From IMG/VR virus record IMGVR_UViG_3300025896_000097, positions 1-34,043 of that record: a DNA stretch of 34,043 nt; one strand, 5' to 3'. The first letter of the stretch is position 1, and every line of letters begins with the position of its first letter. Below the pieces are notes generated by a model, which saw only the letters and a list, made by a program, of their open reading frames with translations, was not told the origin of the DNA and made no database searches. This DNA is from a virus. Both the position numbers and the translations under genes were made by a program. This document shows, piece by piece, positions 20,853 through 33,639 of this stretch.

Positions 20853-20999
20853 ATGTTAGAACAAATATTTCAATGCCTTAAATTAGACTTAAAACACGAA
20901 AGTGAATTGATGAAATTAGCAAAAGGAAAAAACAAATTACCAGAAACGTTTAAAGAAACTTTTAAATTTATAAAATTATTACAATGGCACAAGAAATAG
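20853..20999 (+). CDS. Small protein overlapping tape-measure start
   Basis: 48 codons, helical and basic (EQIFQCLKLDLKHESELMKLA and KFIKLLQWHKK). It ends 16 bases inside the tape-measure gene in another frame. A small gene in this position is common in related phages. It could help tape-measure folding; no evidence beyond location. Confidence 0.5.
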   Translation: MLEQIFQCLKLDLKHESELMKLAKGKNKLPETFKETFKFIKLLQWHKK

Positions 21000-22729
21000 A
21001 GGTTAAGGTTAAGGTTGTAACGGAACAAGCGGTTAACAATGTAGATGCTTTAGGTAACGCATTCGATGCAACAGCAAAGGATGCACAAGATGCACAAAAA
21101 GTTTTTGCTAAGGCTGGTAATGGAGTTGTAGTTGAGGAATCAATTGCGGGGTTAAAACAGTTAAAAAGAGAATTAAAAAATGTAGCGGTTGGTAGTGAAG
21201 AGTTCAAAAAACTTTACAATGATATTGACGATTTAGAAGACAAATTAAAGTCTGCTAAAAATACTTCAAGTGATTGGGTAGATAGTTTAGAGAGTGCGGG
21301 CGGTCCTTTGGGAATGTTAGGTCAAGGAATTAACAAAGTTAAAGTAGCTACTCAAACTTTTGGCGGTGCATTAAAAGCAACAGGAATTGGTTTAGTGGTT
21401 GCATTATTAGCTGGCTTAGCAGGTGCTTTTGCAAACAACGAGGGAGCAATGAAAAAACTACAACCGTTATTAGACGGGGTTTCTAAATTGTTTCAAGGGG
21501 TGTTCCGTGCAGTTGAGCCTTTGTTCAATACATTAGTAGATTTAGCAGTAAGTGCTTTGCCTATGGTATCAAAAGCGTTTAGTGTTGTTTACTCAACTAT
21601 GACTGCTACACTTCAATCATTCGGAGCTATTGGTGCTGCTATTGGTAAACTAATTAAAGGCGACTTTTCGGGTGCGTGGGAAACTGCTAAAAGTTCAGTA
21701 AATGACTTTGGTAAAAATTACGATGCAAGTTTAAAAAGATTTGAAGCAGGTGCAAAAGAGTTGACTAAAACTGAAAAGCTAAGTGCTGATGAACGACAAA
21801 AAATAAGAGACAAAGAAATAGCGGATAAAGTAATAAGAGACGAAAAAGAAAAAGCAAGACGTGAAAAATTAGCTGAGGAAGAAAAAGCAAAATCGGACGC
21901 ATTACGAACTGGTTACGAAAAAGCAAGAGACGATTTAGAAAATCACGAAAAAGCAGTTGCTGAATTAAATAAAAAATATGACGAAGAAAAAGCAATTCGT
22001 TTAGCAGATACAGCTGTAAAAAAAGAGGAACTAGATTACGAAAAAAGAGTTTTAGAAATTGAAAACTTAGCTACAAACGAACTTGAAAGACAAACTTTAA
22101 TTGAGAAATTAGATGGAGAACATAAAGTTAGATTAGGAGTTGCACAAAAAACTGATAATGATAAAAATTTAGCGGATGAAAAGAAATTAGCGGATGAAAA
22201 ATTAGCTATAAAATATAAAGCATTAAACGATTTGCAAACAATTTTTGGAGCAGAAAGTACTATGGGAAAAGCTTTATTAGTTGCTAAACAGATGTTAATG
22301 GCTAAGGAGTTAATAATGGAGGTTAGTAAGACTATTACATTTTCCGCCCAAGCAGCGGCTAGGTCAACGGTTGCATTAGCTGAAGGAGCAGCGCAAACAG
22401 CTAAGATAGGTTTTCCTCAAAACATACCTTTATTAATTGGATATGCAGCCCAAGCAGTTGGTATCTTTTCCGCAATTAAAGGAGCGGTTTCTGCATCAAA
22501 AGCAAGTGGAGTTTCAATGCCATCAATGAGTATTCCAAGTTCAGGAGGTGGAATAGCAACACCAACAACAATACAAGCGAGCCCCTCAGTTGTAGCACCA
22601 AGTGGAGTTAATCAATTAGCTTCTACCTTGGGTCAAAACGTCCCTATAAAGACTTATGTAGTGTCAAAAGAAATGACTACTCAGGCTGCATTAGATAGGG
22701 CAATAGAAGATACTGCTTCATTAGGATAA
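20984..22729 (+). CDS. Tail tape measure protein
   Basis: 581 residues. Helical N-terminus (EIEVKVKVVTEQAVNNVDAL), a hydrophobic segment at about 134-150 (GIGLVVALLAGLAGAF) typical of tape measures that enter the membrane, then a long Lys/Glu coiled coil (about 265-410) and a Ser/Thr/Pro-rich end (SMPSMSIPSSGGG). It sets tail length and helps DNA cross the envelope. At the usual rule of about 0.15 nm per residue the tail would be near 85 nm. Confidence 0.88.
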   Translation: MAQEIEVKVKVVTEQAVNNVDALGNAFDATAKDAQDAQKVFAKAGNGVVVEESIAGLKQLKRELKNVAVGSEEFKKLYNDIDDLEDKLKSAKNTSSDWVDSLESAGGPLGMLGQGINKVKVATQTFGGALKATGIGLVVALLAGLAGAFANNEGAMKKLQPLLDGVSKLFQGVFRAVEPLFNTLVDLAVSALPMVSKAFSVVYSTMTATLQSFGAIGAAIGKLIKGDFSGAWETAKSSVNDFGKNYDASLKRFEAGAKELTKTEKLSADERQKIRDKEIADKVIRDEKEKARREKLAEEEKAKSDALRTGYEKARDDLENHEKAVAELNKKYDEEKAIRLADTAVKKEELDYEKRVLEIENLATNELERQTLIEKLDGEHKVRLGVAQKTDNDKNLADEKKLADEKLAIKYKALNDLQTIFGAESTMGKALLVAKQMLMAKELIMEVSKTITFSAQAAARSTVALAEGAAQTAKIGFPQNIPLLIGYAAQAVGIFSAIKGAVSASKASGVSMPSMSIPSSGGGIATPTTIQASPSVVAPSGVNQLASTLGQNVPIKTYVVSKEMTTQAALDRAIEDTASLG

Positions 22730-22760
22730 ACAAAAATTAATTAATAAACGTTAAAAGAAT

Positions 22761-23405
22761 ATGATACGAACAATAGAGTTGATAATAGACGAAACAATGG
22801 AACTTAGCGGAATAGATGCAATTAGTATTGTAGAAAACCCTGCTATTGAAGAAAATTGGATAACGTTAAAAGAGCAAAAAGAGTACAAGTTTGCAGAAGT
22901 TGACAAAGAAAAAAAGATAATTATGGGTGCTCTTTTAGTTCCTGATAAATTAATCTTTAGACGTGACGGTGAAGGCGAATATAATATATTCTTTTCCAAA
23001 GATACTATAAGACAATGTATGGAATTGTTTTTTCAAAACGGTAACCAATCGAATGCAACTTTTGAACACTTAGAAAAAATTAGTGGTTTGACTTTAGTCG
23101 AAAGTTGGATAGTTGAAGACTTAGACAAAGACAAAAGCAAACTTTATAACTTGAATGTTCCGATAGGTACGTGGATGGGTACAATTAAAGTTAACAACGA
23201 GGTTATTTGGAACGACTTTATTAAAACGGGTAAAGTGAAAGGATTTTCGATTGAAGGCGTTTTTGCTGACAAAGGTAAGATACCATTAAAAAAAATAGAG
23301 CAAATAGAATTAACAGACGAAGAGCAAGAAGTAGAAGTACAAATTTTAGCTGGTTTGGAATTATTAGAAATTCGTGAATTAATTCGATCCTATGAAAAAA
23401 AGTAA
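22761..23405 (+). CDS. XkdF-like prohead protease
   Basis: 214 residues. The start (IELIIDETMELSGIDAISIV) and the segments NATFEHLEKISGLTLVESWI and VKGFSIEGVF match the XkdF-like putative serine protease family (PF14550). His103 and Ser163 are the likely catalytic residues by comparison with other prohead proteases. The enzyme would trim scaffold and capsid precursors. Unusually, three or four genes including two fibre proteins lie between it and the scaffold. Confidence 0.82.
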   Translation: MIRTIELIIDETMELSGIDAISIVENPAIEENWITLKEQKEYKFAEVDKEKKIIMGALLVPDKLIFRRDGEGEYNIFFSKDTIRQCMELFFQNGNQSNATFEHLEKISGLTLVESWIVEDLDKDKSKLYNLNVPIGTWMGTIKVNNEVIWNDFIKTGKVKGFSIEGVFADKGKIPLKKIEQIELTDEEQEVEVQILAGLELLEIRELIRSYEKK

Positions 23406-23628
23406 CGGGTTTAGAGTACCAAGTTGGACAAGTCCAAAGGGAGGCAGTAGAGGTTGTTTATGTGACGATAATACTTATAATGTTAAATGCTGTGACGGTT
23501 CATTACAAGCGCAAGGAATAGGCAACATTACAGGCTTAGCAAGAGTTGCACCAGTAATGTTACAAGAAAATGGAGACAAGGTTTTACAAGAAAATAATTC
23601 AACTATAATAATAGAAAATAATGGATAA
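23392..23628 (+). CDS. Small Cys-rich structural protein
   Basis: 78 residues, overlapping the protease end by 14 bases and the fibre start by eight. GFRVPSWTSPKGGSRGCLCD and VKCCDGSLQAQGIGNI form a strongly conserved small protein of Bacteroidota phages, with CxC and CC pairs that could bind metal. It is found near capsid and fibre genes; role unknown. Confidence 0.72.
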   Translation: MKKSNGFRVPSWTSPKGGSRGCLCDDNTYNVKCCDGSLQAQGIGNITGLARVAPVMLQENGDKVLQENNSTIIIENNG

Positions 23629-26458
23629 AAAGATTTCAGGATTAGACCCAGTAATTCAATTAGCGACAACGGATGCATTACCGATTGTAAACTTAGGTAC
23701 GACAAGAAAGGTAAGCATTGAACAATTACAAGACTTTTTAACACCTAATGTTACTGGAGTTGAATTATTAGCTAACAAACAAAACAGTTTAGAAGTTGAC
23801 GAAACAGGTACGAAATACCCAACAGTTGATGCGGTTAATATTGGACTTGCAAATGTAAACACAAATGCAGTTGATAGGGTAACAGTAAAATTAGGTAGTG
23901 CTATAAATAAAGGACAAGCAGTTTATGTAAGTAGTGCAGAGGGTACTAATATAGTTGTTTCTAAGGCTTCAAATTTAACAGAGGCAACAAGTAGCAAGGT
24001 TATAGGTTTATTAGAAACTACTGGGGTTTTAAATGATATTGTAAACGTGGTTAAAGATGGCTTATTAGCTGGCTTAAATACTTCAACTGCTTTAATTGGC
24101 GACCCTGTTTTCTTAGGCTCAAACGGAGAATTAATTTATGGTTTAGCAAACAAACCATTTGCACCCGCACATTTAGTTTCTATTGGAATAGTTACAAGAG
24201 TAAATATAAATAATGGAGAAATATTAGTCAAGATACAAAACGGTTATGAACTAAACGAAATTCACGATGTAAGCGCACAGACCCCAAGTAATAAGGATGT
24301 TTTATCTTTTGATTCGGTAACGGGCTTATGGAAAAATAACACACTTTCAAGCATTTTACCAGCAATTACAATTACAGATACATTTGTGGTTGCAAGTCAA
24401 ACAGCTATGTTAGCTATTGTAGGAGAAACAGGCGATGTAGCTGTTAGAACAGATATTAGTAAAACATTTATTTTAAAAGGCACAAACCCAACTGTATTAG
24501 CTGACTGGCAAGAGATATTAACCCCGACGGGCGGAGCGGTTTCAAGCGTATTTAATAGAACAGGAAATGTAGTATCTGTAAGTGGCGACTATACAGCCGA
24601 CCAAATAACAGAAACAGCAACACGAAAGTTTCAAACAGCAAATCAAAACACATTTAATGATGCAACTAGTTCAATACAAACTCAGTTAAACGGAATAGCA
24701 ATAAAAGCTATTGACGAGGGCAACGGAATAGGTTATGTAATAGCAAATAGAAACCCTTTGAGATTTGGAAATGTAGGGTTAGGAGCGATAGATTTGAGTA
24801 GTTCTGCTTTTAACAGTACGATCAATGGAGCAACTGGAAAAGGTAGTTTTGCTGTTGGAGAAAGTCAAATAGCATCTGGGGAAGGTTCCGTTGTAATAGG
24901 AGGAGCAAATACAGCAGATGGATATCAAGCGATAGCTATTGGAAATTCTAATATTGTAAAAGATTATAGCGTGGCTATTGGAAATGTAAACGAAGTATTA
25001 GGTAATCAATCCGTTGCTATTGGCACTGATTTAAAAACATTTTCTTATGCAGAAATAGCGATTGGAGGTTCAAATACGTCTTATATCCCAATTTCCGCAA
25101 CCTATTTTGAACCTTTAGATAGACTAATTGTAATTGGAAACGGAAATGCTATTAATAGTGAAGTTTCAGACGCTCTTATCATTCTAAAAAACGGTTTAAC
25201 AACACTACCAAGTGTAACCAATGCTTTAATAGCAGCAGAACCAACAGGTAAAGCGGTTGTAACTAAGGAGTATTTAGAATCTAAGTATTCTCAAATTCAA
25301 CTTATAGATAATACAGATACAGCATCAATATTAAACGAGGGTTTACTAAGGTATAGTAGTAATGCTACAAGTAGCTATGTAGATATAGTTATGCAAACTG
25401 CTCCTTCTATATTCGAATGGGTTAATATTGTAGCTAATACAGATACGCCTATTGATGAGGGTAATACAGTTCCTTCTGTAACTTATTATAGTGACTATGT
25501 AACAGCAAATAGTGAAATATCTACAACATCTTTAACGGACGTAACGGCAACAGGAATGACAATAACACCGCCAGCTGGGGTTTATAAAGTTGATTTTAGT
25601 GCAAATTATGGGATTATTGCTGGTAATATATGTGATATTGCTACAATAGATTTACAGACTTTGTACTTAGATTTATTAACTATGACTGCAACAGCTACAC
25701 ACGGGTTAACTTTTGGTAGCGGAGAAATATTAACCGCTGGAATTTATACGGTAGCTGGAGCTATGAGTGTAGCTGGAACACTTACTTTAGATGGCGGAGG
25801 AAATGAAAACTCTTTATTTGTAATTCGTGCAACGGGTGCAATTAATACAGCTATATCTACTTCAATAGTTTTAGCAAATGGTGCTAATGCTGCAAATGTT
25901 TTCTTTGTTGCCTTAGGAGCAGTAGGAATTGGAGCAGACAATGAAATTAACGGTAACTTTATTGCTTATGGTGCTGCTGCTGCTTTAGGTGCTAACTGTA
26001 TTTTTACAGGTCGTTTATTCTCTACAAGTGGTGCTATTGCTTTTGGAGCTGGTATCTTAAAAAGACCAACTTTAACAAGTGTTGTAAACGTTGGAATACT
26101 TGAAAACTTTTTATGCTTTACAAGCGATGGTGATGTAGCCAATACAGCTATTGCAGTTGTAACGGGTGACTTAGGAACTAATTTAGGTTTGGTTTCTGTT
26201 TTTGCAAATACAGTCTTTAACGGTAGTGCGTACGATAATACTCAACAACTTGGAATTACAAATGTATTCAGTATTTACGTGGGTAATCAAAGAGTAATGA
26301 ATAGCGATAGAACAAGGCGTTATTCAAACTATACGGAGGATATAACATTAACAGGTATAGCGGTCACAGATGGCACGCAAGCTATAACAATTAAATGGAG
26401 AACTGACTTAGGTCGGGTTTTATTAAACAATAGAATTTTAACAGTAAAAACATTTTAA
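23621..26458 (+). CDS. Fibre/adhesin with YadA-like and DUF3494 domains
   Basis: 945 residues. The start (KISGLDPVIQLATTDALPIV) and SSVFNRTGNVVSVSGDYTADQ (about residues 306-327) are typical of Bacteroidota phage tail fibres. Residues about 405-475 hold YadA/Hep_Hag-like repeats (SVVIGGANTADGYQAIAIG and similar). Residues about 625-668 look like the first strands of a C1q-like jelly-roll. Then comes a DUF3494 ice-binding-like solenoid (about 669-805), its N-terminal cap motif placed after it (ENFLCFTSDGDV, GDLGTN, 828-860), and the last jelly-roll strands (884-945). Likely a host- or surface-binding fibre. Its C-terminal 300 residues are paralogous to the next gene. Confidence 0.78.
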   Translation: MDKKISGLDPVIQLATTDALPIVNLGTTRKVSIEQLQDFLTPNVTGVELLANKQNSLEVDETGTKYPTVDAVNIGLANVNTNAVDRVTVKLGSAINKGQAVYVSSAEGTNIVVSKASNLTEATSSKVIGLLETTGVLNDIVNVVKDGLLAGLNTSTALIGDPVFLGSNGELIYGLANKPFAPAHLVSIGIVTRVNINNGEILVKIQNGYELNEIHDVSAQTPSNKDVLSFDSVTGLWKNNTLSSILPAITITDTFVVASQTAMLAIVGETGDVAVRTDISKTFILKGTNPTVLADWQEILTPTGGAVSSVFNRTGNVVSVSGDYTADQITETATRKFQTANQNTFNDATSSIQTQLNGIAIKAIDEGNGIGYVIANRNPLRFGNVGLGAIDLSSSAFNSTINGATGKGSFAVGESQIASGEGSVVIGGANTADGYQAIAIGNSNIVKDYSVAIGNVNEVLGNQSVAIGTDLKTFSYAEIAIGGSNTSYIPISATYFEPLDRLIVIGNGNAINSEVSDALIILKNGLTTLPSVTNALIAAEPTGKAVVTKEYLESKYSQIQLIDNTDTASILNEGLLRYSSNATSSYVDIVMQTAPSIFEWVNIVANTDTPIDEGNTVPSVTYYSDYVTANSEISTTSLTDVTATGMTITPPAGVYKVDFSANYGIIAGNICDIATIDLQTLYLDLLTMTATATHGLTFGSGEILTAGIYTVAGAMSVAGTLTLDGGGNENSLFVIRATGAINTAISTSIVLANGANAANVFFVALGAVGIGADNEINGNFIAYGAAAALGANCIFTGRLFSTSGAIAFGAGILKRPTLTSVVNVGILENFLCFTSDGDVANTAIAVVTGDLGTNLGLVSVFANTVFNGSAYDNTQQLGITNVFSIYVGNQRVMNSDRTRRYSNYTEDITLTGIAVTDGTQAITIKWRTDLGRVLLNNRILTVKTF

Positions 26459-26459
26459 A

Positions 26460-27527
26460 ATGAGTAAAGACTATACAGCGGACAGATTTATAAAAAGAGG
26501 TGGTTCAACAAATGATATATTAATGGCTAATGGTTCGGTTAAGCCTTACTTACAAAGTTATAGTGAAACAGTATCGAGTAACGTTTACTTTCAAAATTCA
26601 AGTTTAGACACAACTTTAATTAGTCAAATGAAAATTATACCTACAACAGCGGGTATATTTAACGTAACTTTTAATGGTCAATTTAACACGCAATTATCAA
26701 ACATTACCCAACAATCGGTAGTGGATTTAAATGCATTATATTTAAACTTAGCTAGTCAAACAGTAACAAATCCATTATTCCCTACTTTCGGAGCAAATAC
26801 AACTATAACACCAGGCGTTTATGAAACTTCGGTTGCAGTTGGTCCAGTTGGAGCTATAACATTAGACGGTGGCGGTAATGTAAATTCTATTTTTATATTT
26901 AGAATTGGCGGAGCCTTAACAGTTGCCGCTGCTTGCGTTTTTAATTTAACAAACGGTGCAACTTCAAACAATATATTTTTCATCTCAAATGGTGCAATAA
27001 GTTTAGGAGCGAATTGTAATATAGCTGGGACATATATTTCGCCCTTAGCAGCGGTAGGAATAGGTGCTGGTGCTACTCTAAGTGGCCGAGCGTTTTCGCA
27101 AGTCGCAGCTATAACAAATAACGGTAATATATCAGTACCACTTTTACCAAGTCCATTCCCGATGGGTATCATACCAAACTTTGCAATTTTTACAAGTGTT
27201 GGAGCGGTTGTAAATATAGGGGCAAATATAGTTGTTGGTGATATTGGAACAAATAACGGTACGGTTACAGGTTTTGAAACAGCTACATTATCAGGTTATA
27301 TTTATTTGCCCGCACAAGGTTCATCTAATTGTAAGATATCAATATATGTAAATGATGTTATTGTTCCAAATTCAACACGTGAAAGAGTTAACGCAATTAC
27401 AAAAGATGATGTTATTCTAAATGAAACAGTTACTATAACATTAGGTCAGTCTATATCTGTTAAAGTTCTTAATTCAATAGGTATAAGTAGGTTCTACAAT
27501 AGAAGTTTAACAATTACAAAAGTTTAA
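26460..27527 (+). CDS. DUF3494 (ice-binding-like) adhesin
   Basis: 355 residues, starting one base after the previous gene. N-terminus DYTADRFIKRGGSTNDIL is a short fibre-type attachment segment. Jelly-roll strands end near GIFNVTFNGQF (about 65-75). The DUF3494 solenoid runs about 80-235, with ITPGVYETS, ITLDGGGNVNSIFIFRIGGA and LSGRAFSQVAAI (Gly209, Arg210). The cap motif FAIFTSVGAVVN (from 241) and GDIGTN (260-265) follow it, then SIYVNDVIVPNSTRER (294 on) closes the jelly-roll. DUF3494 proteins include bacterial ice-binding proteins; on a phage it more likely serves surface adhesion. Ice binding cannot be judged from sequence. Confidence 0.8.
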   Translation: MSKDYTADRFIKRGGSTNDILMANGSVKPYLQSYSETVSSNVYFQNSSLDTTLISQMKIIPTTAGIFNVTFNGQFNTQLSNITQQSVVDLNALYLNLASQTVTNPLFPTFGANTTITPGVYETSVAVGPVGAITLDGGGNVNSIFIFRIGGALTVAAACVFNLTNGATSNNIFFISNGAISLGANCNIAGTYISPLAAVGIGAGATLSGRAFSQVAAITNNGNISVPLLPSPFPMGIIPNFAIFTSVGAVVNIGANIVVGDIGTNNGTVTGFETATLSGYIYLPAQGSSNCKISIYVNDVIVPNSTRERVNAITKDDVILNETVTITLGQSISVKVLNSIGISRFYNRSLTITKV

Positions 27528-27577
27528 AAACACAAAATAAAATAACAAATAGTTATATAAACAATTAATTTAAAAAT

Positions 27578-28144
27578 ATGAAAAACACAGACATCTTAAG
27601 TCGCATAACTGCTCTTTTGAATAAGAAAGTAAGTTTAGCGCAAATGGAATTAGAAAATGGAACGGTTGTAGAATCGGACTCATTTTCAGTTGGAGATCCA
27701 ATTTTTGCAATCAATGGAGAAATCAAAGAGCCTTTAGAAGTTGGTAGCTATACATTAGCCGACGGAACTGTATTAGAGGTTATGGAAATCGGAGTAATTG
27801 GAGAAATTGCAGAAGCAAAAGCAGAAGCAACAGAAGAGGAAATGAAAGCTTTAGAAACTGCTGAACTTGCTCGAATTGAAAGTGCTGAACTTGCTAAAAC
27901 TGAAAGCGAAAACGAATTGATTTTAAAAGTAGTTGAGATTTTGAAACCAACCTTTGACGAATTAAATTCAAGAATTGAAAATCTTTCAAAAGAGAATGTA
28001 GGTTTAAAAGAAACACTTTCAAGTGTAACAGCTACAAAACCAACGGTACATAAACCAACTGAAAAAGTGGCACTTGGAAAACAAAACACTGGGGCAAATA
28101 TTTCAGGTACTGAAGCAAGAATTATGGCAATGTTGTCAAAATAA
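27578..28144 (+). CDS. Capsid scaffold protein candidate
   Basis: 188 residues. N-terminal beta part (MELENGTVVESDSFSVGDPI, LADGTVLEVME) then an Ala/Glu-rich helix (about 85-110) and a coiled coil (VEILKPTFDELNSRIENLSK), ending with a basic Lys/Thr region. This two-part layout just before the major capsid gene is common in Bacteroidota phages and fits a scaffold cut by the prohead protease. Assignment by position and shape. Confidence 0.7.
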   Translation: MKNTDILSRITALLNKKVSLAQMELENGTVVESDSFSVGDPIFAINGEIKEPLEVGSYTLADGTVLEVMEIGVIGEIAEAKAEATEEEMKALETAELARIESAELAKTESENELILKVVEILKPTFDELNSRIENLSKENVGLKETLSSVTATKPTVHKPTEKVALGKQNTGANISGTEARIMAMLSK

Positions 28145-28171
28145 AAATAACAATTTAAAAATAAAAAACTT

Positions 28172-29080
28172 ATGGCTAATCAACCTACGATTACATCAAA
28201 TTACGCTGGAGAAAGTGCTGGAAAATATATTGCAATGGCAGTATTATCAGCTAATACTTTAGCAAACAATGGAGTGACTATCATTCCTAATGTTAAATTT
28301 AAAGCAACAATTAAAAAATTAACTAACAGTGGTTTGGTAACTTCTGCAACTTGCGACTTTACCGATACTGGAGTTGTATCTTTAGCAGACAAAGTATTGA
28401 CTGTTAGTGAAATGCAAGTGAATTTACAAGTTTGTAAAACACCGTTTCAATCAGATTGGGAAGCAGCATCAATGGGATATTCCGCATTTGATTCTTTACC
28501 TTCGACTTTCTCAGATTTCTTTATCGGTAAAGTATTAAAAGATATTGCTTTAGATACTGAAACTTTCCTTTGGAATGCAACAAATGGTTTAGGAAAATTA
28601 CTAAGAACTGACGGTTCAGTTATAGTTACTACACCCGTAGCTATTACATCTGCAAACGTACAAGCTGAAATGGCTAGATTAGTAGCTCTTATTCCTGATT
28701 CAGTATTTGGAACTGAAGATTTAAGACTATTCGTCCCTATCGGAGTTCAAAAAGCATACATTGCTTCTTTGGCTGGATTTGGTGCATCAGGTTTAGGTGC
28801 TAACGGATTTAACGCTCAAGGTACAAATCAAAAGATTGACGCTGTATATTTTAATGGAGTGCCTATTTTCGTTGCAAATGGAATGCCTGCAAACACAATG
28901 ATTGCTGCTGAAATTTCTAACCTTTACGTTGGATTTGGTTTACAAGACGATCAAAATGTAATCCAAACAATTGATATGGCTGATATTGACGGGTCTAAAA
29001 ACGTTCGTTTTATTGCACGCTTTACAAGAGGTTTGCAAGTAGGTATCGGTGCTGATTCAGTTACTTACGGTATTGTATAA
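28172..29080 (+). CDS. Major capsid protein
   Basis: 302 residues. ANQPTITSNYAGESAGKYIA at the N-terminus, KTPFQSDWEAASMGYSAFD and LRLFVPIGVQKAYIASLAG are hallmarks of a major capsid family of Bacteroidota siphoviruses, expected to have the HK97 fold. DIDGSKNVRFIARFTRGLQV near the C-terminus fits the conserved strand of that fold. A terminator immediately after it suggests that this gene is the last of its transcript and abundant. Confidence 0.85.
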   Translation: MANQPTITSNYAGESAGKYIAMAVLSANTLANNGVTIIPNVKFKATIKKLTNSGLVTSATCDFTDTGVVSLADKVLTVSEMQVNLQVCKTPFQSDWEAASMGYSAFDSLPSTFSDFFIGKVLKDIALDTETFLWNATNGLGKLLRTDGSVIVTTPVAITSANVQAEMARLVALIPDSVFGTEDLRLFVPIGVQKAYIASLAGFGASGLGANGFNAQGTNQKIDAVYFNGVPIFVANGMPANTMIAAEISNLYVGFGLQDDQNVIQTIDMADIDGSKNVRFIARFTRGLQVGIGADSVTYGIV

Positions 29081-29088
29081 ATTTAATT

Positions 29089-29113
29089 GGGGTTATTAAT
29101 TTAACCCCTTTTT
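29089..29113 (+). terminator. Intrinsic terminator after capsid gene
   Basis: GGGGTTA (29089-29095) with TAACCCC (29102-29108), 6-base loop, then T5. It lies nine bases after the capsid stop and may set capsid expression apart from downstream genes. Confidence 0.8.
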
Positions 29114-29135
29114 ATTAACTTTTAAATAAAAATAT

Positions 29136-29672
29136 ATGAGTACTTGTTTAATGACAACAGGGCGTAAATTAGCTTGTAAAGATGCGGTTGGGGGTATTCA
29201 AAAGATATTCTTTGCCGACTATGGTACACTTGGTAACGCTACAATAACAGCTGGTTTAGTTACTGCATTTAGCGGAGCTGCATACACGCTATACCAATAC
29301 GATGTAAAGAGCGCATCAAATTTAGAACAAACTATCACTTCAAGTGGAGACAATGGAACTACTTTTTTCGCTCAATCAATTACACTTGTTTTGACGAAAT
29401 TAGATGCTGCTTCAAATGTTGAGTTACAGAAACTAATTGTTTCAAGACCACACGCTTTTGTAATGGATAATAACGGGAATTACTTAGCAGTTGGAATGAC
29501 ACGTGGATGCGACACAAACGGAACTATCTCAACAGGTACTGCATTAGGCGACTTGAACGGATATACTTTGACTATTACAACTGAAGAGCCGTTAATGGCG
29601 CAATTTGTAACACCGTTATTAATTACAGATAAAATTGCTGGAGGTGCAACACCTACTCAAATAGTACCGTAA
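29136..29672 (+). CDS. Probable major tail tube protein
   Basis: 178 residues, beta-rich and without charged helices. TGRKLACKDAVGGIQKIFFA at the start and LNGYTLTITTEEPLMAQFV near the end resemble the tail tube (major tail) proteins of Bacteroidota siphoviruses. It is flanked by terminators, as abundant structural genes often are. Located between capsid and portal, away from the rest of the tail genes, which is unusual. Confidence 0.68.
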   Translation: MSTCLMTTGRKLACKDAVGGIQKIFFADYGTLGNATITAGLVTAFSGAAYTLYQYDVKSASNLEQTITSSGDNGTTFFAQSITLVLTKLDAASNVELQKLIVSRPHAFVMDNNGNYLAVGMTRGCDTNGTISTGTALGDLNGYTLTITTEEPLMAQFVTPLLITDKIAGGATPTQIVP

Positions 29673-29691
29673 TTAAATAAAATTTGTGATT

Positions 29692-29750
29692 GGTTAAGTT
29701 GAGTAAATTTAACCTTTTAAGAGCATCGATTTACTTCGGTGCTTTTTTTT
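29692..29750 (+). terminator. Tandem intrinsic terminators
   Basis: First hairpin GGTTAA/TTAACC (29692-29697, 29709-29714) followed by T4. Second, stronger hairpin AGCATCGA/TCGGTGCT (29722-29729, 29736-29743, one G-T pair) followed by T8 to 29750. They follow the tail tube gene. Confidence 0.85.
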
Positions 29751-29781
29751 GCAAAAACATTTTTTTTCTCGTTAAATTGAT

Positions 29782-30135
29782 ATGATAGTACTTACAACAC
29801 AATTAGCACAAAATTTCGAAATTATACCAACTAAACAAAGTGACACCGCTTTAAATACTATTTACTTTGAATTTAAAGACGAAACTACTCAAATAGTACA
29901 TAATAGGTTGGTTACGTATGAAAGTACTTTAAACGACTTGTTTATAGTAGGTAGTGATAATTTTGACTTTCTAATTGAAAATAATTTCTATGAGTTGACT
30001 GTTATGTTTTCAGTTACAAATGAAATAATTTATAAGGATAGAATTTTTTGTACAAATCAAACGGTCAAAGAATATTCCATTAATCAAAACGAATATTTTT
30101 TGCCAAACATTGATAATAATTTTTATAAAATCTAA
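29782..30135 (+). CDS. Hypothetical protein before portal
   Basis: 117 residues, acidic, with strand-like segments (IVLTTQLAQNFEIIPTKQ, TIYFEFKDET, YELTVMF). A beta-sandwich-like small protein at this place (before the portal) recurs in Bacteroidota phages without known function. The stop overlaps the portal start by one base. Perhaps a neck or decoration protein. Confidence 0.6.
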   Translation: MIVLTTQLAQNFEIIPTKQSDTALNTIYFEFKDETTQIVHNRLVTYESTLNDLFIVGSDNFDFLIENNFYELTVMFSVTNEIIYKDRIFCTNQTVKEYSINQNEYFLPNIDNNFYKI

Positions 30136-32667: not shown

Positions 32668-33639
32668 ATGGCAACAATTCAAACAATAAACATCGGTGCA
32701 GCTGCAAATGATAACACGGGCGATCCGTTAAGAACTGCATTCGACAAACAGAATCAAAATAATACGGCTTTGAATAATGATTTAGCATCAAAAGCACCTT
32801 TAGCAAACGCAAGTTTTACAACCGATATAGTTGTAAATCAAGTTAGAGTAGGTAAAGGTGGAGGTGGCTTAGTAGCTAATACGGTTGTAGGTTTTAGTTC
32901 GGGTCAATCAGGAACCACTGGACAATCAAATACTTATTTTGGTAACAATTCAGGATATTTTAACCAATTTGGCAACTCAAACACTTGTTTAGGTGCAAGT
33001 GCTGGCTATAATAACATTTCAGACGATAACACATTTGTAGGCTCGGGTGCTGGAATTGTAAACACAAATGGAACTAAAAATACTTATTTAGGTAAAAACT
33101 CAGGCTCAACAGTAAACAATACTAATTGCACGGCACTTGGCAACACTTCTACAATAACAGGCGACAATCAAGTACAATTAGGCAACGCATCAACTACTAC
33201 ATACGTTTACGGAACTGTGCAAAACCGTTCAGATTTACGGGACAAAGCAGACGTTCAAGACACAGTTTTAGGTTTAGATTTCATATCTAAATTAAGACCA
33301 GTAGATTACAAGTGGGATATGCGTGAAGACTACAAAGACGAATTTCCTATTCAAGGCGAATTATCAGACGAAGATTTTAAAATTGAAATGGATTTATGGT
33401 TAGAAAACGGTAAACTTTCTAATTTAAAACAAGACGGTTCTAAAAAGAGAAATAGATTTCATCACGGGTTTATTGCTCAAGAAGTTAGGGACTTAGGTAT
33501 TGAATTTGGAGGGTTTCAAGACCACGCTAAAAATGGTGGTGAAGATGTATTATCGATTGGTTATGATGAGTTTATAGCACCAATGATTAAAGCTATTCAG
33601 GAATTAAAAGCAGAAATTGAACTTTTAAAAATGAAATAA
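32668..33639 (+). CDS. Tail fibre with S74 self-cleaving chaperone
   Basis: 323 residues. N-terminus IGAAANDNTGDPLRTAFDKQ is the attachment segment of many phage fibres. The middle (about 70-180) has Asn/Gly/Ser-rich turns typical of a trimeric beta-roll tip. The C-terminus is the peptidase S74 intramolecular chaperone, starting NRSDLRDKADVQ with Ser188 as the expected nucleophile, then LDFISKLRPVDYKWDMRED, HHGFIAQEV and a closing coiled coil. The chaperone helps trimerisation and is normally released by self-cleavage before Ser188. The last 72 residues reappear, diverged, at the start of the window. Confidence 0.88.
   Translation: MATIQTINIGAAANDNTGDPLRTAFDKQNQNNTALNNDLASKAPLANASFTTDIVVNQVRVGKGGGGLVANTVVGFSSGQSGTTGQSNTYFGNNSGYFNQFGNSNTCLGASAGYNNISDDNTFVGSGAGIVNTNGTKNTYLGKNSGSTVNNTNCTALGNTSTITGDNQVQLGNASTTTYVYGTVQNRSDLRDKADVQDTVLGLDFISKLRPVDYKWDMREDYKDEFPIQGELSDEDFKIEMDLWLENGKLSNLKQDGSKKRNRFHHGFIAQEVRDLGIEFGGFQDHAKNGGEDVLSIGYDEFIAPMIKAIQELKAEIELLKMK

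Follow-up and report, generated by a model that had tools for sequence, protein, structure and literature searches.

Two adjacent open reading frames of a tailed phage, ORF1 (945 aa) and ORF2 (355 aa), each were predicted to end in one C1q/TNF-like jelly-roll that is interrupted by a circularly permuted DUF3494 (PF11999, Ice_binding) domain of ~215 aa. This architecture, a permuted ice-binding-like domain inserted into a loop of a fibre head domain, was proposed in a preliminary description of the sequence, and both the permutation and the insertion were supported by sequence analysis, by structure prediction and by natural uninterrupted homologues of the host domain. The architecture was not confined to phages, since secreted proteins of Bacteroidota carried the same unit, and permuted, inserted DUF3494 domains also were found in an unrelated host protein, the phage tail sheath. 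No description of the permutation or of the nesting was found in the open-access literature that was searched.

Genomic context and organization of the two proteins

The window, that is the whole stretch of DNA that was analysed, is a linear IMG/VR virus record of 34,043 nucleotides. It encodes terminase small and large subunits, an XkdF-type head protease, a portal protein, a tail-spike-like protein with an S74 chaperone domain, and NinG, and so represents a tailed phage. ORF1 and ORF2 are located between the head protease gene (22761-23405) and the downstream head genes. The features of the two proteins were as follows.

23621..26458 (+), ORF1, a 945 aa fibre-like protein, the last ~320 aa of which are the nested unit
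23621..24358 (+), ORF1 N-terminal module (aa 1-246), shared with many viral contigs
25484..25618 (+), ORF1 predicted jelly-roll, first half (aa ~622-666), ending in AGVYKVDFSANYG
25628..26086 (+), ORF1 inserted DUF3494, long helix plus solenoid (aa ~670-822)
26087..26245 (+), ORF1 DUF3494 cap, first in canonical order but last here (aa ~823-875)
26258..26455 (+), ORF1 predicted jelly-roll, second half (aa ~880-945), SIYV...NSDRTRR...NNRILT
26460..27527 (+), ORF2, 355 aa, a short leader plus the nested unit
26550..26693 (+), ORF2 predicted jelly-roll, first half (aa ~31-78), ending in AGIFNVTFNGQF
26703..27143 (+), ORF2 inserted DUF3494, long helix plus solenoid (aa ~82-228)
27159..27311 (+), ORF2 DUF3494 cap placed after the solenoid (aa ~234-284)
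27324..27524 (+), ORF2 predicted jelly-roll, second half (aa ~289-355), SIYVND...NSTRERV...YNRSLT

The motifs on which the preliminary description was based were present in both proteins in the order that it had given, with the exception that ORF1 reads GIY and not GVY. A search of IMG/VR with ORF1 gave 295 related stretches, the best 80 of which were kept and mostly matched aa 2-246, while aa 222-385 of ORF1 matched a PHROG of unknown function and, more weakly, PHROGs annotated as minor tail protein and tail protein. Incorporation of ORF1 and ORF2 into virions is inferred only from this N-terminal module and from the gene context. There was no match to ORF2 in 50,697 phage records and no match to the ORF1 unit in 72,556 plasmids.

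The DUF3494 domains are circularly permuted

PF11999 matched both proteins (E = 1.9e-21 for ORF1 and 2e-27 for ORF2; 77.2 and 96.6 bits, compared to a Pfam gathering threshold of 28.7 bits), but the matches started only at profile position ~36-55. To determine if this result reflected a change in the order of the domain, a profile was built from 36 canonical-order Bacteroidota domains. In single form this profile matched each protein in two pieces that were in reversed order. In ORF2 the solenoid at aa 64-223 corresponded to profile positions 38-197 (iE = 1e-38) and was followed by the cap at aa 235-296, corresponding to positions 3-67 (iE = 7.8e-14); in ORF1 the match to aa 628-811 (iE = 3e-39) was followed by a match of aa 823-875 to positions 2-54 (iE = 2.3e-11). 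When the same profile was duplicated in tandem, one continuous hit across the junction was obtained for each protein (178 and 170 bits). Canonical phage controls stayed essentially within one copy of the duplicated profile, moving the ORF2 cap to the front in silico restored one canonical hit, and the best of 50 shuffled sequences scored 5.7 bits. Consistent with these results, a phmmer comparison placed the ORF2 cap at chain index 6-44 of 5uyt. The two domains therefore are regarded as circular permutants that are homologous to the DUF3494 family, and not as ordinary members of it, since the cap follows the solenoid in both proteins.

Predicted structures of the nested units

Structures of ORF2 aa 10-355 and ORF1 aa 570-945 were predicted with AF2, using an alignment of 33 relatives, and gave pLDDT values of 88.7 and 86.7, respectively. 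These models are of monomers and were built with relatives of the same architecture in the alignment. Structural comparison with VIA-align matched the helix, solenoid and cap to the tandem ice-binding protein IBPv of Flavobacteriaceae bacterium 3519-10 (PDB 5uyt), with Z scores of 19.8 for ORF2 and 21.3 for ORF1 (rmsd 1.4 over 155 residues for ORF1); the chain range in 5uyt ran from domain 1 into domain 2, as expected of a permutant. The Z scores to all of the DUF3494 structures listed were 16-21. IBPv was the closest known protein by both sequence (36% identity) and structure, and shared the triangular beta-solenoid with a parallel long helix, the cap, and the motifs LDGGGN, NGAxxxNVFW and GRxFS. 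In contrast to IBPv, the chain order in the phage proteins is helix-solenoid-cap and not cap-helix-solenoid, the domain has no free termini and is inserted in another domain, and there is no evidence of ice binding.

The outer parts of both models matched whole TNF-like jelly-rolls across the insert. For ORF2, model residues 23..346 aligned with residues 2..134 of the TNF-like lectin PLTL (113 aligned residues, rmsd 1.7, Z = 15.7); for ORF1 the alignment to PLTL spanned model residues 54..376 (Z = 16.2). Z scores to the BC2L-C N-terminal domain were 15.6 and 15.7, with BxpB (BxpB/ExsFA), BclA and C1q domains below. Overall, the matches to these jelly-rolls had Z scores of 13-16 and rmsd values of about 1.7-2.5 over ~113 residues, at 8-16% identity. 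Two separate DUF3494 domains in normal order were not seen in either model, and in both models the jelly-roll halves closed into one fold. A shared fold shows no function. A short S-x-R resemblance to the fucose site of PLTL was noted, the fucose-binding residues of such lectins being known (PMC12914763), although the sugar site was not tested.

The link to the jelly-roll fold was weaker by sequence. The joined flanks of a relative matched BclA_C (PF18573) at 9.6e-5, but the best score of 22.7 bits was below the gathering threshold of 38 bits. The joined jelly-roll profile found no solved structure by sequence, nor did one uninterrupted jelly-roll, and the fold link rests on the predicted structures together with the sub-threshold BclA_C hit. 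Compared to phage fibre and receptor-binding proteins with C1q-like heads, ORF1 and ORF2 have a C-terminal head, on a fibre-like protein whose N-terminal module is shared with many phage contigs in the case of ORF1, but the head is split by a second, permuted domain.

Uninterrupted homologues of the jelly-roll

To determine if the host domain occurred without the insert, 296 Bacteroidota genomes were surveyed with the joined flanks (loci from this and the other surveys are numbered with the prefix L). An uninterrupted copy was found at L246, where one stretch covered positions 7-105 of 106 (E = 3e-14). In one Bacteroidetes MAG a tandem array of nested genes contained one paralogue of 222 aa, L242:17481-18146, in which the jelly-roll was uninterrupted. 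This protein reads GTYLVTFESDCKSLNASSALVLGTFSIYANG, with a short loop where its neighbours have 214-257 aa (median 222). L242:17481-18146 and L246 scored 49 and 43 bits, respectively, compared to 10.7 bits for the best of 400 shuffled sequences. By homology with the strands of C1q, the insertion site is inferred to be the loop between strands C and D. By strand parity this loop is inferred to lie at the end away from the termini, and hence probably at the distal tip.

Distribution and origin of the nested unit

A first scan of genome contigs found nothing, but a second scan, carried out with a different query, found 80 loci. Scans of IMG/VR and GTDB contigs, followed by a profile-based test of domain order, gave about 35 distinct ORFs with the cap after the solenoid, nearly all of which had jelly-roll halves on both sides. 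Three further loci, L115, L216 and L240, were flagged as permuted by a coordinate rule; the L115 and L216 sequences showed canonical order when they were read, and L240 was excluded with them on its coordinates. The permuted ORFs included proteins from phage contigs of up to 130 kb (L004, which encodes a 1718 aa fibre, L088, L100 and L104) and secreted Bacteroidota proteins with apparent signal peptides (L163, L164, L165 and L168). Two MAGs had 13 and 15 matches, many of them in tandem. The array in one genome, G001, was flanked by LpxD, MutS-like, YceI, nitroreductase and Cas9 genes, and L164 was flanked by amylase and permease genes, so these loci are chromosomal and not obviously prophage. 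The architecture is therefore shared between phages and Bacteroidota cells.

In a tree of solenoid plus cap, the 34 permuted jelly-roll sequences required 4 changes of label, compared to a mean of 28.9 when labels were shuffled, and were located in a supported group with Flavobacteriaceae tandem IBPv-like domains. A route through tandem duplication and trimming is therefore plausible, although it is an inference.

Permuted DUF3494 domains in phage tail sheaths

Crystal structures show that canonical DUF3494 coils are stacked in the order b1-b6-b5-b4-b3-b2 and that the N-terminal part, which stacks on the last coil, runs straight into the long helix (PMC7966756). Cutting between cap and helix and joining the old ends gives a solenoid whose coils run in sequence and whose new ends, formerly bonded neighbours, lie side by side, so that the domain can be plugged into a hairpin of another protein without disturbing either fold. 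That this geometry is the reason why permutation and insertion go together is an inference, but it predicted further insertions, and these were found.

One viral ORF of 954 aa (L122, the same as L252) was a tail sheath (PHROG 279, 1.7e-25) with a permuted DUF3494 domain at aa ~161-376. The sheath homologues L255, L256 and L262, which are 68% identical, lacked exactly this stretch (SSAPFDVTG-DVATETLVLRVQGG compared to SSATPFDLT...[insert]...GGASLVLRIQG), while L253 and L254 had it. The cut was again at the cap/helix junction. To determine if all cases could be derived from one permutation event, the sheath and jelly-roll permutants were constrained to form one clade; this arrangement was rejected (log-likelihood 116.7 lower, p-AU = 1e-7). 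A further scan identified permuted domains in the same kind of sheath (L266 and L273-276), in more distant sheath-like proteins at a different site (L290-L298, L305 and L336/L338), and in another phage protein without a PHROG match (L334/L337). Canonical-order DUF3494 also was common in phages in these sets, with 132 matches against 43 permuted, although these counts were not de-duplicated and were biased by the queries.

It is likely, though not proven, that circular permutation at the cap/helix junction is the general route by which DUF3494 becomes insertable, and that it arose at least twice independently, with insertion into unrelated virion proteins (jelly-roll fibre heads, tail sheaths at two different sites, and probably a further phage protein), so that phage particles are decorated with ice-binding-type solenoids. 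DUF3494 is a well-studied fold, and the proteins described here show a natural circular permutant of it, with uninterrupted homologues that reveal the insertion point in two unrelated hosts.

Possible functions

We consider it likely that the nested unit works as the distal binding head of a virion fibre or, in Bacteroidota, of a secreted adhesin. In this inferred model the jelly-roll probably trimerises and the solenoid presents a flat face of small residues to a repetitive ligand, most likely a host or surface glycan, possibly ice.

The principal alternative, that the domain is a working ice-binding module by which virions and Bacteroidota cells stick to ice or frozen particles, is possible but less likely, and ice binding was neither shown nor excluded. 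The ice-binding face of IBPv domain B has a row of residues, A364, A391, A410 and G429, mutation of which to Leu abolishes most activity (PMC5673226). By alignment these residues fall on Ala in ORF2 (GGAL, NGAI, LAAV, VAAI), the row is also Ala in ORF1, and the corresponding columns are 77-100% Ala in the permuted groups. However, the nearest canonical Bacteroidota clade is equally Ala-rich, so this conservation may be inherited. Neighbouring columns had lost the Thr seen in most other canonical sequences, but since the Ala row was retained no conclusion could be drawn as to whether the permuted group had lost an ice-binding face. DUF3494 has no consensus ice-binding motif (PMC7966756), so sequence cannot decide, and the habitat of the window is unknown. 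Conservation of the flat face of small residues permits, but does not show, ice binding.

It is less likely still that the domain is a structural spacer or stabiliser of the fibre head without a ligand of its own. The presence of DUF3494 in tail sheaths, where a receptor role is less obvious, is in agreement with this suggestion, but the faces of the fold stay flat and conserved, and the strong diversification in tandem arrays (L162/L163) looks more like ligand diversification.

PF11999 genes in polar viromes have been read as host cryoprotection genes (PMC11515562). For this window such an auxiliary metabolic role is very unlikely, since the domain is nested in a predicted jelly-roll at the end of a fibre-like protein next to head and tail genes, there is no signal peptide in ORF1 or ORF2, and permuted domains also are located inside tail sheaths. 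PF11999 hits in phage genomes should not automatically be read as cryoprotection genes, since many are parts of structural proteins. Finally, although a tandem pair trimmed at both ends is the likely route by which the permutation arose, the possibility that the proteins contain two partial DUF3494 domains in normal order, or are assembly chimeras, was refuted in silico by the single compact solenoid in both models, the same order in about 35 distinct ORFs from unrelated contigs, and flanks that close on each other and occur uninterrupted elsewhere.

Permuted DUF3494 domains in other proteins

A permuted DUF3494 domain was found inserted in phage tail sheath proteins, namely the viral ORF L122:4294-7155 (= L252:3001-5862) and the proteins of contigs L253, L254, L266 and L273. 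Sheath homologues that were 68% identical (L255, L256 and L262) lacked the insertion, and the sheath insertions were independent of the jelly-roll group. In addition, a permuted DUF3494 domain was present at a different site of more distant sheath-like proteins of ~907-995 aa, which were encoded on contigs L290 (3230-6175), L298 (3341-6325), L305 (1832-4552) and L338 (167-2920). Permuted DUF3494 also was detected in phage proteins of ~530-540 aa, encoded at L334:3302-4927 and L337:3455-5044. These proteins are of unknown function, with no PHROG match, and probably represent a further host protein.

A permuted DUF3494 domain was also observed in a 475 aa lipoprotein-like ORF (L107:3492-4916 and contigs L108-L110), which had no recognisable jelly-roll; these contigs are classed as viral, but may be cellular. 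When the predicted structure of ORF2, the second of the two nested fibre-like proteins, was compared with viral structures in BFVD, the top matches were A0A481Z347 (Mimivirus LCMiAC02) and A0A481YXR3 (Marseillevirus LCMAC201). These matches spanned 333-336 alignment columns of the ORF2 model, although at a low TM-score; giant viruses may have similar nested heads.

Nested paralogues in Bacteroidetes genomes

Tandem arrays of nested secreted paralogues were identified in two Bacteroidetes MAGs, G001 (contig C1, locus L242:393-19636) and G002, with 13 and 15 matches per genome, and with one empty-site copy. At another locus, L244:1351-1731, a 127 aa ORF located next to a complete nested gene resembled a signal peptide fused to the end of the cap and the second jelly-roll half, and is a probable deletion product. 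In an Arcicella MAG (L180:1960-2834) the nested unit was split over two reading frames, due to either a frameshift or an assembly error.

Genomic context of the fibre-like ORFs

Within the window, the two fibre-like ORFs are located between the head protease and the downstream head genes, after a tape-measure-like ORF. This is an unusual place for tail fibres, so it is possible that they are head fibres. The relevant features were as follows:
20984-30135, the region in which the two fibre-like ORFs lie between the head protease and the downstream head genes
24872-24949 (ORF1 aa 418-443), YadA-head-like repeats in the shaft of ORF1, the first fibre-like protein (E 6.6e-5, just under the Pfam cut-off)
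32668-33639, a tail-spike-like protein with an S74 intramolecular chaperone domain (PHROG 4636, 3.4e-77)
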